Source of the DNA: Promicromonospora thailandica
GTDB lineage: Bacteria > Actinomycetota > Actinomycetes > Actinomycetales > Cellulomonadaceae
NCBI RefSeq assembly: GCF_024171955.1
Contig: NZ_JAMTCS010000002.1
Span: forward strand, 421,300 to 485,299
Direction of reading: 5' to 3'
Length of the DNA: 64,000 nucleotides
Below, piece by piece: positions 11,485 to 52,305 of this stretch. The notes beneath the pieces are model-generated. The model saw nothing but the letters and a program-made list of their open reading frames with translations. It did no database searches and was not told the origin of the DNA. Both the position numbers and the translations under genes were made by a program. How positions within the stretch are numbered: the stretch's first letter is position 1; each line of letters opens with the position of its first letter.

Positions 11485-12264
11485 GTGAGCAAGCTGCCCG
11501 AGGACGTCCGGGAACGTCCTGTGCCTGATCCCGCCGAGCTGCGCCAGCTGGTCGCCGACCTGCGCCGTCTGGTGCTGACCTACAAGTTCGGCATCGACGA
11601 GGTCATGACCAAGATCACGATCCTGCGGGACGAGTTCCGGCACATGCAGAACTACAACCCCGTGGAGCACGTGGGATCGCGGCTCAAGTCCTTCGAGTCG
11701 ATCGTCGCGAAGTGCCGGCGCAAGGGCATCCCGCTGACGCCCGAGGGCGTGCGCGAGCAGATGTTCGACGTCGCCGGGGTGCGGATCACCTGCAGCTTCG
11801 TCAACGACATCTATCTGGTGCGCGACATGCTCCTGGCGCAGTCGGACCTGACCCTGCTGGAGGAGCGCGACTACATCAAGCACCCGAAGGCCACCGGGTA
11901 CAAGTCGCTGCACCTCATCGTGCAGATCCCGGTCTACCTGTCCGACCGGGTCGAGAAGGTCATCGTCGAGATCCAGCTGCGCACCATCGCGATGGACTTC
12001 TGGGCGAGCCTGGAGCACAAGATCTACTACAAGTACGACGGCGACGTGCCCCGCCACCTGACCGACTCGCTCAAGCTCGCCTCCGACGTCGCCTGGTCGC
12101 TCGACACCTCGATGGAACGCATCCACGACGAGGTCAAGGCGATCTCGGGCGACGAGGAACCGGTGGCGAGCCGGCACAACCTGCACACGCCGGAGGAGAT
12201 GCTGCGCGACTTCTGGCGTGCGGCGGAGGCCGACGGCGGTTTCGGCTTCGACAGCGAACCCTGA
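11485..12264 (+). CDS. Small alarmone synthetase, RelQ-like (p)ppGpp synthetase
   Basis: A 259-residue protein with the RelA/SpoT nucleotidyltransferase domain but no HD hydrolase, TGS or ACT domains. Landmarks are VGSRLKSFESIVAKCRRKG, MFDVAGVRITCSFVNDIY, DYIKHPKATGYKSLHLIV, EIQLRTIAMDFWASLEHK and IYYKYDGD. Such stand-alone synthetases transfer pyrophosphate from ATP to GTP or GDP; here the output would be (p)ppGpp under stress. The G-loop region before KSFESI and the EIQLRT strand are intact, so it is probably active. The GTG start has a TACGGT box six bases upstream and probably no leader. It converges on abfA across a repeat-built palindrome. Confidence 0.9.
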   Translation: MSKLPEDVRERPVPDPAELRQLVADLRRLVLTYKFGIDEVMTKITILRDEFRHMQNYNPVEHVGSRLKSFESIVAKCRRKGIPLTPEGVREQMFDVAGVRITCSFVNDIYLVRDMLLAQSDLTLLEERDYIKHPKATGYKSLHLIVQIPVYLSDRVEKVIVEIQLRTIAMDFWASLEHKIYYKYDGDVPRHLTDSLKLASDVAWSLDTSMERIHDEVKAISGDEEPVASRHNLHTPEEMLRDFWRAAEADGGFGFDSEP

Positions 12265-12274
12265 CCCCCTCCGC

Positions 12275-12424
12275 CGAAGTAGAACTGCAGCGAAGTAGAA
12301 CTGCAGCGAAGTAGAACTGCAGCGAGATAGAACCGGAGCCCGGCTGCAGTTCTACTTCGCTGCAGTTCTATTTCGCCCTGGTTCTATCTCGCTGCAGTTC
12401 TACTTCGGCGGAGGTTCTACTTCG
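12275..12424. repeat. Palindromic array of 16-bp units (family A, locus 1)
   Basis: Four left-hand units (12275-12290, 12291-12306, 12307-12322, 12323-12338), mostly CGAAGTAGAACTGCAG, face five inverted units starting at 12344, 12360, 12376, 12392 and 12409. The central five bases are the loop. The array fills the gap between two convergent genes, can form a very long hairpin on either strand, and supplies the TAG stop of abfA (12417-12419). A sister array with a variant unit lies at 19489-19591. Confidence 0.85.
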
Positions 12425-13952
12425 GCGAGGCCAGGGTGCCCGACAGCGCCGTCCAGGACTCCGGCGCGAGCGTCACCGTGGTCGTCGTGCCGTCGCCTGT
12501 CGCGACCCGGGTCGCGACGTCGAACGCGCCCCAGTGCTCCGCCGCGACCTTCCGCGCGTGCTCCGGCCCGGCGACGGCGGCCTCGTGGTCGGCGGTCATG
12601 GTCCAGCCCTCCGCGACGTCGAGCGACGCGCCCAGGTGCGCCAGCTCGACCTCGACCGGCTCGGCCGAGCGGTTGGTCAGGAACAGGGCGAGGGCTCCGT
12701 CGGCCAGGGTCGCCGCCGCCGTCACGGAGGGCACGTCGCCGTGCGCCGCGGTGGTGATGGCCGGGGTGGACACGCGCAGGTCGAGGGCCTCGCCGTGGGC
12801 GAGCCGCGCCGTCGTCGCGAACGGGTGGAAGGTGGGCTGCCGCCAGGCCTCACCGCCCGGCTCGGTCATGATCGGCGCGATGACGTTGACGAGCTGGGCC
12901 AGGCAGGCGACGGGCACGCGGTCGGCGTGGTTGAGCAGCGTGACCAGCAGGTCTCCCACGACCACGGCGTCGAGCCCCGAGTAGACGTCCTCGATGATGC
13001 GGGGAGCGTCGCGCTGGATCGGCAGGTTCTCCTCGCCCGGGAACCGCGTGGTGAGGTACCAGACGTTCCACTCGTCGAAGCTCACGGTGATCTTCTTGTC
13101 GGACCGGCGCTGCGCCCCGACGGCGTCGGCCGAGGCCACGACCCGCTCGATGAACCGGTCCATCGCGGTGCCCGAGCCGAGGAACGACGCGCGGTCGCCG
13201 TCGACCTCCTCGTAGTACGCGTGCATGGACACGTGGTCCACCACGTCGTAGGTGTGCTCCAGGACGGTGCGTTCCCACGCGCCGAACGTCTCCATCTGCA
13301 TGGACGACGAGCCGCACACGACCAGCTCGATCGTCGGGTCGACCAGCTTCATCGCGGCGCCCGTGTTGCGGGCCAGCCTGCCGTACTCGTGCGCGTCCTT
13401 GTGGCCGATCTGCCAGGGGCCGTCCATCTCGTTGCCCAGGCACCAGAGCTTGACGCCGTACGGCTCCTCGCGGCCGTTGGCGATGCGCAGGTCGGCCCAG
13501 CGCGTGCCCGCCTCCCCGTTGCAGTACTCCAGCAGCGCGACGGCCTCCTCGACGCCCCGCGTGCCGAGGTTGACCGCCATCATCGGCTCGATGCCCTCGC
13601 GCTCGGCCCACTGCAGGAACTCGTCCGTGCCCACGAGGTTGGGCTCGACGGTGCGCCATGCCAGGTCGAGGAACGGCTTGCGCTGCTCGACCGGCCCCAC
13701 CGCGTCCTCCCAGCGGTAGTTCGACACGAAGTTGCCGCCGGGATACCGGACGGTCGTCACGCCGAGCTCGCGGGTCAGGTCGGCGACGTCACGGCGGAAC
13801 CCGTGCTCGTCGGACGCCGGGTGCCCCGGCTCGTGGATCCCCGTGTAGACGGCGCGGCCCAGGTGCTCCACGAAGGAGCCGAACAGGCGGCGGTCCACGG
13901 TGCCGACGGTGAAGTCGGGGTGCAGCAGGACGCGGGTGCGGGAGGTCGTCAT
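12417..13952 (-). CDS. abfA: Alpha-L-arabinofuranosidase, GH51
   Basis: A 511-residue intracellular-type GH51 enzyme with no signal peptide; it cleaves terminal arabinofuranosyl groups from imported arabino-oligosaccharides. The catalytic acid/base is E175 in LWCLGNEMDGPW and the nucleophile is E294 in VSFDEWNVWY; by my count these are the positions known in the Geobacillus enzyme. RYPGGNFVSNYRWEDAVGP is also a family signature. ATG at 13952 has GAGGAAC just upstream and begins where homology begins. The stop codon lies in the family A repeat. It is divergent from the lacI gene, with a CAACGTTG palindrome between them, and its product feeds araA. Confidence 0.95.
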   Translation of the reverse strand: MTTSRTRVLLHPDFTVGTVDRRLFGSFVEHLGRAVYTGIHEPGHPASDEHGFRRDVADLTRELGVTTVRYPGGNFVSNYRWEDAVGPVEQRKPFLDLAWRTVEPNLVGTDEFLQWAEREGIEPMMAVNLGTRGVEEAVALLEYCNGEAGTRWADLRIANGREEPYGVKLWCLGNEMDGPWQIGHKDAHEYGRLARNTGAAMKLVDPTIELVVCGSSSMQMETFGAWERTVLEHTYDVVDHVSMHAYYEEVDGDRASFLGSGTAMDRFIERVVASADAVGAQRRSDKKITVSFDEWNVWYLTTRFPGEENLPIQRDAPRIIEDVYSGLDAVVVGDLLVTLLNHADRVPVACLAQLVNVIAPIMTEPGGEAWRQPTFHPFATTARLAHGEALDLRVSTPAITTAAHGDVPSVTAAATLADGALALFLTNRSAEPVEVELAHLGASLDVAEGWTMTADHEAAVAGPEHARKVAAEHWGAFDVATRVATGDGTTTTVTLAPESWTALSGTLASPK

Positions 13953-13983
13953 TGTTCCTCGCTGGTCGGTGGGGGCTGTTCTA

Positions 13984-13991
13984 CAACGTTG
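13984..13991. promoter_or_regulatory. CAACGTTG palindrome between abfA and lacI
   Basis: TACAACGTTGCA (13982-13993) is a central-CG palindrome of LacI-family type, 32 nt before abfA and about 80 nt before the lacI start. It is well placed for repression of abfA and autoregulation. The same 8-mer core is found before ytfQ at 6597. Confidence 0.55.
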
Positions 13992-14070
13992 CACAGTAGC
14001 CGATGGCCGACGCGGCGGCGAGGTCCGTCCTCTACCCTGTGGACAAACTTGCGGAGCGGAGGCAGGCAGC

Positions 14071-15147
14071 GTGGCCGTGACGATGCACGACGTGGCGCAG
14101 CGCGCCGGCGTCTCCATCAAGACCGTGTCGAACGTGGTGAACGGGTACCCGTACATCCGCGCGGCCACCAAGGAGCGCGTCGAGGCCGCGATCGAGGAGC
14201 TCGGCTACCGCGTCAACATGTCCGCGCGAAACCTGCGCACCCGGCGCACGGGGCTGATCACCCTCGCGGTGCCCGAGCTCTCGCTCCCGTACTTCGCGGA
14301 GCTGGCCGACGCCGTCATCTCCGCCGCCGACGCCGCCGGCTGGACCGTGCTCATCGAGCAGACCAGCGCGAGCCGCGAGCGCGAGACCGAGGTGCTCTCG
14401 GGGCGGCGCAGGCACCTCACCGACGGCCTGATCTTCTCGCCGCTAGCGCTCGGCCCCGACGACCTCGGGCTGTTCTCCGTCGACTTCCCGCTGGTGATCC
14501 TCGGGGAGCGCGTCTTCGGCGCGCCCGCCGACCACGTGACCATGAACAACGTGGCCGCGGCCAAGGCCGCCACGCTGCACCTCGCGTCGCTGGGCCGCCG
14601 CCGGATCGCGGTGATCGGGGCGCACGAGGGGGAGCGGGCCGGGTCGGCCGCGCTGCGCACCGAGGGCTACCGGGAGGGCCTGGCCGAGGCGGGCCTGTCC
14701 TACGACCCCGCGCTCGTGCGCGAGGCCGTCCCGTGGCACCGGTCGACCGGCGCGGAGGCCGTGGGCCGCATGCTGGACGACGGCGTCGACTTCGACGCCG
14801 TCTTCGCGCTCAACGACGCCCTGGCCCTCGGCGCGCTCCACGCGCTGCACGCGCACCGGGTCGACGTGCCGGGGCAGGTCGCGCTCATCGGGTTCGACGA
14901 CGTCGACGACGCGCGCTTCGCCGTGCCTGCGCTGTCCTCGGTGGACCCGGGGCGGGACCAGATCGCCCAGACCGCCGTCGACCTGCTCGTCGAGCGGATC
15001 GGGGCATCGGGCGACCCGGCGCCCTTCCGGCGGGTGGTGCCGGACTCGCGCATCGTCGGCAGGGAGTCGACGGGCGAGGACGGCTCGGTCGTCGGCGTGC
15101 AGCACGGCGGCACCGAGCCGGTGGCGGCCGCGCCCGCCCGGGCGTGA
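14071..15147 (+). CDS. LacI-family transcriptional regulator
   Basis: A 358-residue repressor. The N-terminal helix-turn-helix reads MHDVAQRAGVSIKTVSNVVNG, the hinge follows at about residues 50-60, and a periplasmic-binding-like effector domain ends with ALIGFDDVDDARFAVPALSSV. GTG at 14071 is chosen because GGAGG lies eight bases upstream; GTG 14077 or ATG 14083 would also retain the DNA-binding domain. Its position between abfA and chvE suggests it senses arabinose or an arabinoside and controls abfA, itself and probably the transporters. Which of the two operator types it binds cannot be told from sequence. Confidence 0.9.
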   Translation: MAVTMHDVAQRAGVSIKTVSNVVNGYPYIRAATKERVEAAIEELGYRVNMSARNLRTRRTGLITLAVPELSLPYFAELADAVISAADAAGWTVLIEQTSASRERETEVLSGRRRHLTDGLIFSPLALGPDDLGLFSVDFPLVILGERVFGAPADHVTMNNVAAAKAATLHLASLGRRRIAVIGAHEGERAGSAALRTEGYREGLAEAGLSYDPALVREAVPWHRSTGAEAVGRMLDDGVDFDAVFALNDALALGALHALHAHRVDVPGQVALIGFDDVDDARFAVPALSSVDPGRDQIAQTAVDLLVERIGASGDPAPFRRVVPDSRIVGRESTGEDGSVVGVQHGGTEPVAAAPARA

Positions 15148-19488: not shown

Positions 19489-19591
19489 CGAGATAGAACC
19501 GTGGCGAGATAGAACCGTGGCGAGGTAGAACCGCAGACTTGCGCTGCAGTTCTATCTCGCCACGGTTCTATCTCGCCACGGTTCTATCTCG
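19489..19591. repeat. Palindromic array of 16-bp units (family A, locus 2)
   Basis: Three units (CGAGATAGAACCGTGG twice, then CGAGGTAGAACCGCAG) face three inverted units (starting 19544, 19560, 19576) around a seven-base loop. 46 of 48 possible pairs match. The unit is a variant of that at 12275-12424, but each locus matches itself better than it matches the other. It lies between gguB and a downstream tetR gene, where it should act as a very strong terminator. Confidence 0.85.
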
Positions 19592-50485: not shown

Positions 50486-52305
50486 GTCCGGGTGACGGCC
50501 AGGCGCCCGCCGGCCGCCCCGGACTGCGTGCTCGGCTCGCCGGCTGGCGCAGGGACTTCCGTCCCTGGCGCAGGCAGCGGCCGTTCGTCGGGGGTGTGCT
50601 GGTAGCGCTCGCTGGCCTGGAGATGCTCGTGTCCGGCCCGATCAAGCTGGACCAGCTCGGCATGAACATCGTGCTGCAGTTCGGCGTGGAGGGCGCGCAG
50701 GCGACGATCCTGCCGCTGGCGCTCGTGCTGCTCGGGATCCTCTCGATCGCGCAGCCCGTGCACCGGATCTTCTACGGCGTCATCGCGCTCGCCATCTCGG
50801 TCTACTCGATCGCGGGCGTGAACCTCGGCGGCTGGGTGATCGGGTTCCTGCTGGGCGTCGTCGGCGGCGTGATCGTCGTGTCCTGGGCGCCGACCCCGGC
50901 CCCGGAGAGCGGCGAGGCGACGGGCGACGCGGCCGATGGGACAGCCGGCGACCCCGCTGACGACACGGCCGGCGGGCCCGCGGACGGCGCAGCAGACGGC
51001 GCAGCAGACGGCGCAGCAGACGGCGCAGCAGACAGGGCAGCGGACGGCGCGTCCCCGACCGCTGCGCCCGGTGCGGACGACGGGGCGGACGACGGCGCGG
51101 ACGACGGCGCGACGACCGGCGACAGCACGGCGCCCGACAGCACGGCGCCCGCCGACGACGCCTCGAGCGTCCACCCGAGCGGCGACGCCACCGACGGCGA
51201 GCGACCCGCTCCCGACCCGGAGTCCCTCAGCGGGGCGCTGCGGAAGCTGTCCCAGAAGTCGGCGGCGGTCGTGGTGGCGAGCGCCATGGCGCTGGGCGGC
51301 ATGAGCCTGCCCGCGTCGGCGTCGAGCACGTCGGACGCCACCACGTCGTCGGACGACTCGTTCTGGTGCGTGGTCTTCAACGTCTGCGACGACGAGGGGG
51401 ACCCGGAACCGTCGGCGTCGCCGTCGGCGGGCGAGACCGCGGAGCCGGGCACGGGTGAGACGGAGGAGCCGGGTACCGGCGGCACCGAGGACCCGGGCGA
51501 CGGCGCCGGGACCACCGACCCGGCAGGCGGCGACGCGGGCGGCGGCGCGACGGGCGACGGCACCGGCACGCCCGGCGCGGACGACAGCGCGGGCGCCGGC
51601 AAGGCTGACGGAGACGAGCCCGCGGGCGACGACCCGGCGGACTGCGCCGAGCCGACGCAGGACGGTCAGGTGCCGCCCGAGGCGGCCGACGCCGCGCCGT
51701 CCGACCCGTGCGGCGAGATCGACCCGCAGGAGACCATCGAGGAGGCGCTGCAGACCGAGCTCGGCACCTGCGTGAAGGTGAGCTTCGGCGGAAAGTTCGA
51801 CCTCAACGTGGACCTGCCGGGCCAGTGCGGCGCCACGGAGGACGGCAACGTCTTCTCGCTCCCGGCGGACCTGGAGAGCCGCGACCTGACGATCCCGCTC
51901 ACCGGCATCAACGGCATCGGCCTGGCGAACGTGCCGGTCAAGGGTGACGGTGGCGGCCGCAGGGACGCGATCAAGATCTCGGCCGACAAGGTCGTCGTCG
52001 ACGGGTTCTGGCTCAAGTCGTACGCCTACGACCACGGCACGGTGGCGGGCACGGACACGCGGGCGAGCTTCGTCTCGCTGGAGGGCGACGCGCACATGTA
52101 CGTGTCGTCGATCCATGCGAACCTGCCCGACGGCCAGGACCTGCTGGAGGTCGCGACCAAGGTGCTCGAGGGCGCGTCGCTCATCGAGCTGCTGCTCACG
52201 GCCACCGACGCGCGGATGGGCTTCCTCGGTGCGACGTCGGACGTCCAGGTGTGGGACACGTTCCGCGAGCAGGTCTGGGGCGACCCGACCAACCCGATCG
52301 GCTGA
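50476..52305 (+). CDS. DUF6114 membrane protein with long extracellular C-terminal extension
   Basis: A 609-residue protein. Residues about 30-140 are a DUF6114 domain of four hydrophobic helices (RPFVGGVLVALAGLEMLVSG onward). Residues 145-250 are low-complexity Ala/Asp/Gly/Pro, including ADGA and DDGA repeats. Around 254-285 is a signal-peptide-like segment (SQKSAAVVVASAMALGGMSL then PASA). A second Gly/Glu/Pro/Thr-rich linker follows, and about 400-609 form a Cys-containing beta-rich domain. Ordinary DUF6114 proteins have only the first part. GTG 50476 overlaps the DUF6230 stop by ten bases. The frame is continuous, so this is either a fusion or two genes joined by loss of a stop. Confidence 0.7.
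   Translation: MLLSPGDGQAPAGRPGLRARLAGWRRDFRPWRRQRPFVGGVLVALAGLEMLVSGPIKLDQLGMNIVLQFGVEGAQATILPLALVLLGILSIAQPVHRIFYGVIALAISVYSIAGVNLGGWVIGFLLGVVGGVIVVSWAPTPAPESGEATGDAADGTAGDPADDTAGGPADGAADGAADGAADGAADRAADGASPTAAPGADDGADDGADDGATTGDSTAPDSTAPADDASSVHPSGDATDGERPAPDPESLSGALRKLSQKSAAVVVASAMALGGMSLPASASSTSDATTSSDDSFWCVVFNVCDDEGDPEPSASPSAGETAEPGTGETEEPGTGGTEDPGDGAGTTDPAGGDAGGGATGDGTGTPGADDSAGAGKADGDEPAGDDPADCAEPTQDGQVPPEAADAAPSDPCGEIDPQETIEEALQTELGTCVKVSFGGKFDLNVDLPGQCGATEDGNVFSLPADLESRDLTIPLTGINGIGLANVPVKGDGGGRRDAIKISADKVVVDGFWLKSYAYDHGTVAGTDTRASFVSLEGDAHMYVSSIHANLPDGQDLLEVATKVLEGASLIELLLTATDARMGFLGATSDVQVWDTFREQVWGDPTNPIG
50980..51111 (+). repeat. 12-nt in-frame tandem repeats in the DUF6114 gene
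   Basis: GCAGACGGCGCA repeats about five times (50980-51050), then GACGACGGCGCG-type units (51077-51111), coding for ADGA and DDGA. These make the disordered linker after the membrane domain and are liable to slip. Confidence 0.8.

Follow-up and report, generated by a model that had tools for sequence, protein, structure and literature searches.

Here we report that the gap between an alarmone synthetase gene and the converging arabinofuranosidase gene abfA in Promicromonospora thailandica is occupied by four forward and five inverted 16-bp units that together make a single long hairpin, and that arrays of the same kind stand at gene ends elsewhere in this genome and in other members of the genus. 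On the pattern of these sequences we consider it fairly probable that the arrays are U-less, bidirectional gene-end hairpins, grown locally, and that they serve as terminators or as stabilisers of RNA 3' ends.

A modular palindrome between two converging genes

The array lies in a 64-kb window (the whole stretch of DNA analysed, 64,000 nucleotides), whose relevant features are the following.

11485 to 12264, + strand: RelA/SpoT-type alarmone synthetase gene (PF04607), start codon as given in the list of open reading frames
12272 to 12427, no strand: whole array with its outer CGC...GCG ends (YGC/CGA boundary), placed by the boundary logo of 236 array ends
12275 to 12338, + strand: left arm, four forward units at an exact 16-bp period, from unit matches
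12339 to 12343, no strand: centre, 5 bases between the unit arms, from the sequence and unit matches
12344 to 12424, - strand: right arm, five inverted units (16, 16, 16 and 17 bp apart), the outermost of which provides the abfA stop
12417 to 14171, - strand: arabinofuranosidase (abfA) frame (PF06964), convergent, ending within the array; its listed start may be too far upstream
19489 to 19591, no strand: second array of the window, 3+3 units, from six unit matches

Forward units start at 12275, 12291, 12307 and 12323 and inverted units at 12344, 12360, 12376, 12392 and 12409, all of them matching CGARRTAGAACYGNRG with at most two mismatches (two inverted units carry 1 and 2). Shuffling the window 100 times gave a mean of 0.64 such matches and never more than 2; the array is genuine and chance is excluded. 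The nine matches bear out the four forward and five inverted units described in a sequence-only reading of this DNA, and the exact 16-bp period claimed there holds throughout the left arm and for inverted units one to four, and fails at the fifth inverted unit, which lies 17 bp from its neighbour. The arms of the palindrome, 73 nt long and 1 nt apart, are 85% complementary. The array is predicted to fold as RNA at -116.9 kcal/mol on the + strand (z -14.8) and at -115.6 kcal/mol on the - strand (z -13.9), with none of 200 shuffles as good in either case, in agreement with the very long hairpin on either strand that had been proposed.

On its left side the array begins 10 bases past the stop codon of the synthetase. 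On its right side the end of the abfA frame extends into it, and the TAG that closes this frame belongs to the outermost inverted unit. Because the units abut without spacers, and both orientations are present, the exclusion of a CRISPR stands. So does that of an ordinary terminator, as the array has no U-tract and no terminator-like site was found between 12100 and 12600. No Rfam family matched at gathering score in the 64-kb window. The second array lies 12 bases behind a + strand gene and ahead of another + strand gene, not at a convergent junction, and a lone match to the unit (two mismatches) occurs at 51714.

Distribution in the genome and the genus

The P. thailandica genome (5.38 Mb in 24 contigs) contains 151+141 copies of the core CGARRTAGAAC, 292 in all, against 4+0 for a reversed control pattern. 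The unit therefore extends far beyond two loci, and the outcome that the earlier reading had held against itself, a unit found only at two places by chance similarity, falls away. A scan of named genomes for the direct unit pair, a pattern without bias toward palindromic arrays, returned at least 80 loci, all of them from Promicromonospora among the matches listed. The loci named P. soli, P. panici and P. sukumoe come from the same genomes as three of our thirteen genus genomes (G005, G009 and G011), and between the two sets only identical stretches were dropped before counting. The unit-pair pattern is present in 8 of 59 genomes, all of genus Promicromonospora; the hairpin pattern has between 1 and 83 matches in each of 8 genus genomes out of 13 and is absent from the other 5. 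A phage-borne repeat was ruled out by the lack of any unit-pair match in viral contigs.

One P. thailandica array is split (C1:167059-168408; locus L002, 1501-2850): 1.25 kb separate its 3 forward from its 4 inverted units, and between the halves stands a whole 348-aa gene together with the gene's own hairpin; the gene has no Pfam match at E 0.001.

Position relative to genes and stop codons

Gene calls for this survey came from a custom codon-usage script, with no published annotation. Among the matches listed for P. thailandica there are 37 arrays, of which 28 lie at convergent junctions, 7 between tandem genes and none at divergent ones, with 2 at fragment edges; of the 24 contigs the set covers those from C1 into C11, and the arrays of C3 to C11 were located with the hairpin pattern, which favours palindromic arrays. 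The 81 arrays of named species among the matches listed are distributed in the same way (52 convergent, 16 tandem, 0 divergent, 13 undecided). Background gene pairs on contig C2 number 72 convergent, 274 tandem and 71 divergent, which gives binomial P values for the convergent excess of 8e-16 in P. thailandica and 2e-26 in the named species. The proposed association with gene ends is thus well founded. Arrays are nearly absent within genes, with one lone unit core intragenic among those examined.

Gene stops mostly fall within 25 bases of an array, with one peak at about 8-12 bases before it and a second at -8, which corresponds to genes that stop at the TAG within the unit. Most of the 199 adjoining gene ends (152) reach a stop codon ahead of the array. 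For the others the stop lies in unit 1 (40 cases), unit 2 (5), unit 3 (1) or at another place inside the array (1); no gene ends at 37 further array sides. About one adjoining gene in four accordingly ends on the TAG of the octamer CGARRTAG, a property of the unit that the sequence-only reading had missed. Counted per array arm (n = 236), three reading frames are closed in 135, two in 92, one in 8 and none in 1.

Unit anatomy and probable local growth

Unit anatomy was counted in 118 clean arrays comprising 734 units, with mixed-orientation and one-armed arrays left out. Each 16-bp module, itself non-palindromic, consists of the 11-nt core and a 5-nt variable linker; neighbours are spaced by 16 bp in 488 of 498 cases, and arms hold up to 8 units each. 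The core is nearly invariant save for AG, GA or GG at positions 4-5, and its TAG is no better conserved than the rest. Array ends are sharp, with YGC/CGA at 236 ends (G 0.90 at -2, C 0.87 at -1), and are thus defined inverted ends of the kind by which MITEs and insertion elements are recognised. No array lacked an inverted arm among 121, part of which were located with the hairpin pattern. The mean difference in length between arms is 1.05, against 1.19 expected by chance (32 of 1000 shuffles as low), only a slight excess of equality.

Linker letters 12-15 agree in 0.657 of comparisons between hairpin partners, in 0.426 between non-partners of the same array and in 0.418 between arrays. Identical units make up 0.245 of neighbours, 0.289 of hairpin partners, 0.161 of opposite-arm non-partners and 0.049 of units from different arrays. 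The higher identity of neighbours and of hairpin partners suggests duplication in place together with copying between arms. GG at positions 4-5 accounts for 64% of units in P. panici and 12% in P. thailandica, a species-wide difference that suggests some exchange of units between loci as well. In 13 centre hairpins, hand-picked for their palindromic look and so favouring covariation, 12 of 26 pairs show two-sided changes, every cell (338 of 338) is paired, and four of five covariation measures exceed all 500 shuffles; the fifth, which counts further pair types, shows no excess (78 of 500 shuffles as high). The agreement between arms could come from DNA-level copying alone.

The same data bear on a selfish origin, in which a REP-like palindromic element moved by its own or a borrowed enzyme, with the hairpin as its mobility substrate rather than a terminator, survives mainly at gene ends since it is harmless there. 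Such an element would account for the sharp ends, the core kept near-invariant across hundreds of units, copy numbers that range from 0 to 83 among species of Promicromonospora, the species-wide drift at positions 4-5 and a hairpin nested within another hairpin, and REPs occupy the same kinds of places in the excerpts of PMC3733652. We nonetheless regard it as rather unlikely. The Y1 (RAYT) transposase domain PF01797 was found in 0 of 13 genus genomes and in 5 of 14 controls, which rules out a RAYT-driven REP. The flanks of 118 arrays, compared at many offsets, gave at best 6 matches against 2.55 expected, so that insertion with target duplication is ruled out too. Units are much more alike within arrays than between them, which points to local growth, and the near absence of arrays inside genes also speaks against free insertion. 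Pairing between the flanks beyond the array ends, which would be a sign that a single hairpin had grown or that one had entered an older hairpin, gave no clear general signal in the array-end survey, although one nested case is visible by eye.

Exchange of hairpin families at gene-end slots

The synthetase/abfA junction of the window was compared by eye across 13 genomes. The array is present in four (G000, G003, G005, G006), a TGTCAGACG hairpin in two (G007, G010), a GTCGAGCTTGTCGAGAC-type hairpin in two (G011, G012) and a GTGATCGTTGCG hairpin in three (G002, G004, G009); the last two genomes (G001, G008) have a different neighbour gene and no hairpin clearly visible by eye. Eleven of 13 genomes thus carry a long hairpin here, drawn from four sequence families, and these unrelated hairpins in sister species are a feature that the sequence-only reading had missed.

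Orthologous convergent junctions gave a broader view, with 353 pairwise comparisons over contig parts of eight genomes; a junction here counted as having a long hairpin if it contained one of the listed family motifs or if a stem of at least 15 pairs, small bulges allowed, was predicted in it. In the 53 comparisons with an array on one side, the opposite side had a different hairpin in 42, likewise an array in 6 and no hairpin in 5. An array occurs somewhere in 9 of 52 junction groups, and 27 of the 30 non-array members of these groups carry a long hairpin. Members without a hairpin number 3 of 30 in array groups against 57 of 156 in array-free groups (P 0.005, a rough value as members of one group are related). 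Among gaps of 30-300 bp, a stem of at least 20 pairs is present in 129 of the 190 at convergent junctions, in 63 of the 239 at divergent ones and in 184 of the 678 between tandem genes. Family motif and long stem are both missing from 98 of 292 convergent junctions, about one in three, and a hairpin is therefore not obligatory. Taken together, the comparisons are consistent with a slot that seems to ask for a hairpin rather than for one particular sequence.

Several further repeats were observed. A GGTCGAGCTTGTCGAGACC family has 0 copies in P. thailandica and 113 in G011. Another family, around ACCTCGGTCTCGAA, has 11 copies at 7 places on contig C2 of P. thailandica, also at convergent junctions (for example C2:103074-103191 and C2:333893-334029). 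In G004 (L149), a 16-bp array with a different core, CGAGGTAGTC..., stands between same-strand genes on the upstream side of the synthetase gene, and a small relative of it occurs at C2:86450-86484 in P. thailandica. In the G006 counterpart of the P. thailandica junction at C2:473605, a GTCGAGCTTGTCGAGACC hairpin appears by eye to be nested in an older hairpin, which is whole at C2:473605.

Related arrays in other genera

Of 396 genomes of the order, 385 have no more than background numbers (at most 8 matches) of the pattern CGARRTAG-N6-16-CGARRTAG. Counts are high (26-234) in the other 11, which belong to six genera including Promicromonospora; in a class sample of 117 other genomes the highest count is 5. 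Promicromonospora has a period of 16, four of the other genera have 19 and the remaining one has 20, and G036 has one 20-spaced pair among its 19-bp arrays. The gene context of 24 such arrays is convergent in 12 cases, tandem in 9 and divergent in 0, with 2 at edges and 1 intragenic call. Arrays that share the octamer at other periods had also escaped the sequence-only reading. In genus g21 (L306, 1501-1730), twelve direct 20-bp units CGAGGTAGGCAACGTTCGGC stand at a gene end without an inverted arm, the TAG of the first unit being the stop codon, and this direct-only array is a misfit with a pure hairpin reading.

That array would agree with a DNA-level site, the core being bound by a nucleoid, gyrase-type or replication/segregation factor where converging transcription builds positive supercoils; a protein-binding role at supercoiled sites has been proposed for some BIMEs. 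Conservation of the core far beyond the needs of pairing, and of CGARRTAG in six genera despite changing linkers and periods, would be explained in the same way. We hold such a site to be improbable as the main role, since the linkers agree in hairpin register, sister species fill the slot with unrelated hairpins, arrays are also found behind single tandem genes, and 5 of 13 genus genomes have no arrays by the hairpin pattern.

That the arrays are mainly a translation stop cassette, in which the TAG of units at a period that is no multiple of three closes every frame on both strands, is very improbable. The gene ends within units 1 to 3, the arms that close two or three frames and the periods of 16, 19 and 20 in six genera, with the 20-spaced pair of G036, agree with it. 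Against it, TAG is no more conserved than the remaining core, a set of only three periods without a multiple of 3 is weak evidence, and three genes in four reach their own stop first; moreover, CGARRTAG is not the building block of the other hairpin families that occupy these slots.

Comparison with known elements

Judged by analogy, the arrays work like REP/BIME elements, yet are not members of that class; they would be close to REP/BIME elements in place and behaviour and to I-shaped terminators in form. Excerpts of PMC3733652 describe REP/BIME elements as palindromes tagged with GTAG and CGTC that lie between genes, mostly convergent or unidirectional, in clusters and inverted dimers, with convergent copies less than 20 bp from both gene ends; the unit is a 20-40 bp palindrome with the tag at one end, often with a RAYT transposase. 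As far as those excerpts go, both are repeated intergenic palindromic DNA at gene ends with very uneven copy number between relatives, and the P. thailandica arrays are likewise extragenic, convergent or co-directed, and near gene ends. The REP unit is itself a palindrome, whereas here non-palindromic 16-bp units build one long palindrome; the GTAG of the array lies within the paired stem instead of at one end, and position 5 of the unit is A in 29% of 734 units. RAYT transposases, common with REPs in the same excerpts, have no Y1 counterpart found in the 13 Promicromonospora genomes.

The I-shaped terminators of mycobacteria, as presented in part of PMC12288462, share with the arrays a U-less hairpin soon past the stop codon (within about 50 bp) in a high-GC actinobacterium; the arrays are far longer, modular, a repeated family and two-directional, and their terminator role is putative. 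Repeated stem-loop families are a known kind (PMC2267715). The uptake-sequence terminators of Neisseria and Pasteurellaceae (PMC1852404) resemble the arrays in that a short repeat in inverted pairs yields many terminator hairpins, but each of those hairpins is formed by a single inverted pair of a signal 9-11 nt long that generally has at least 1000 genomic copies. The arrays here have multi-unit arms, 292 cores and no known link to DNA uptake.

Within the open-licence literature we found no matching description of such arrays, and one may exist elsewhere. The GGTCGAGCTTGTCGAGACC string was not found there; five unit strings led to papers that by their listed titles concern other subjects, the strings probably being primers. 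REP and termination in actinobacteria gave nothing matching (the nearest paper is on Bradyrhizobium), and repeats in Cellulomonas, Isoptericola and Promicromonospora gave nothing related. Three features appear to be new: the two-armed build from several units, a stop codon carried by the unit itself, and hairpin families that take each other's place at a single slot.

A proposed bidirectional terminator hairpin at gene ends

A classical (L-shaped) intrinsic terminator is ruled out by the lack of a U-tract: besides the absence of terminator-like sites at the focal array, the U fraction at array ends is 0.179, and 5 or more U in 10 occur at only 5 of 236 sides. Among the alternatives offered by the sequence-only reading, a modular U-less terminator or a palindromic gene-end repeat would fit best, and the array may also have an RNA-processing or nucleoid role.

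The termination, RNA processing and copying that we infer from these patterns would proceed as follows. A transcript from either converging gene would traverse the near and then the far arm and fold into a single long RNA hairpin with no U-tract, just past the stop codon or taking the stop codon in. The hairpin would most likely terminate transcription alone, in the I-shaped manner, or with Rho or NusG, and would leave a protected or RNase III-processed 3' end; neither converging gene would then be read antisense by its neighbour. The array would grow and stay symmetric in place through unit duplication and copying between arms, the sequence family being exchangeable and the hairpin slot being what is kept. 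The nearly invariant core exceeds what a pure hairpin role needs and counts against the hairpin explanation.

Long palindromes would be able to persist where the palindrome nuclease SbcCD is absent. SbcD (TIGR00619) scored over cut-off in 0 of 13 genus genomes, with weak partial matches in 2 (G003, G004), and in 8 of 14 control genomes, 13 of which were positive. The arrays show long palindromes built and kept in a genus in which no SbcD was detected over the cut-off. A wider proposal, which we offer as a speculation with the odds against it, is that these are order-wide gene-end cassettes, CGARRTAG being set at a genus-specific period that is no multiple of 3 (16, 19, 20) and usually mirrored into one palindrome; they would close all frames and transcription on both strands, grow by hairpin-templated copying, and be tolerated in Promicromonospora through missing SbcCD.

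It is disputed whether U-less hairpins truly end transcription in high-GC actinobacteria. U-tracts are often missing at inferred termination sites in a study of 13 genomes; against this, the title of a paper cited in PMC12288462 states that a U-tract is required by mycobacterial RNA polymerase. At the synthetase/abfA junction, where four unrelated hairpin families occupy one place, structure has already been uncoupled from sequence in the course of evolution, and natural variants would therefore allow U-less termination to be tested directly.
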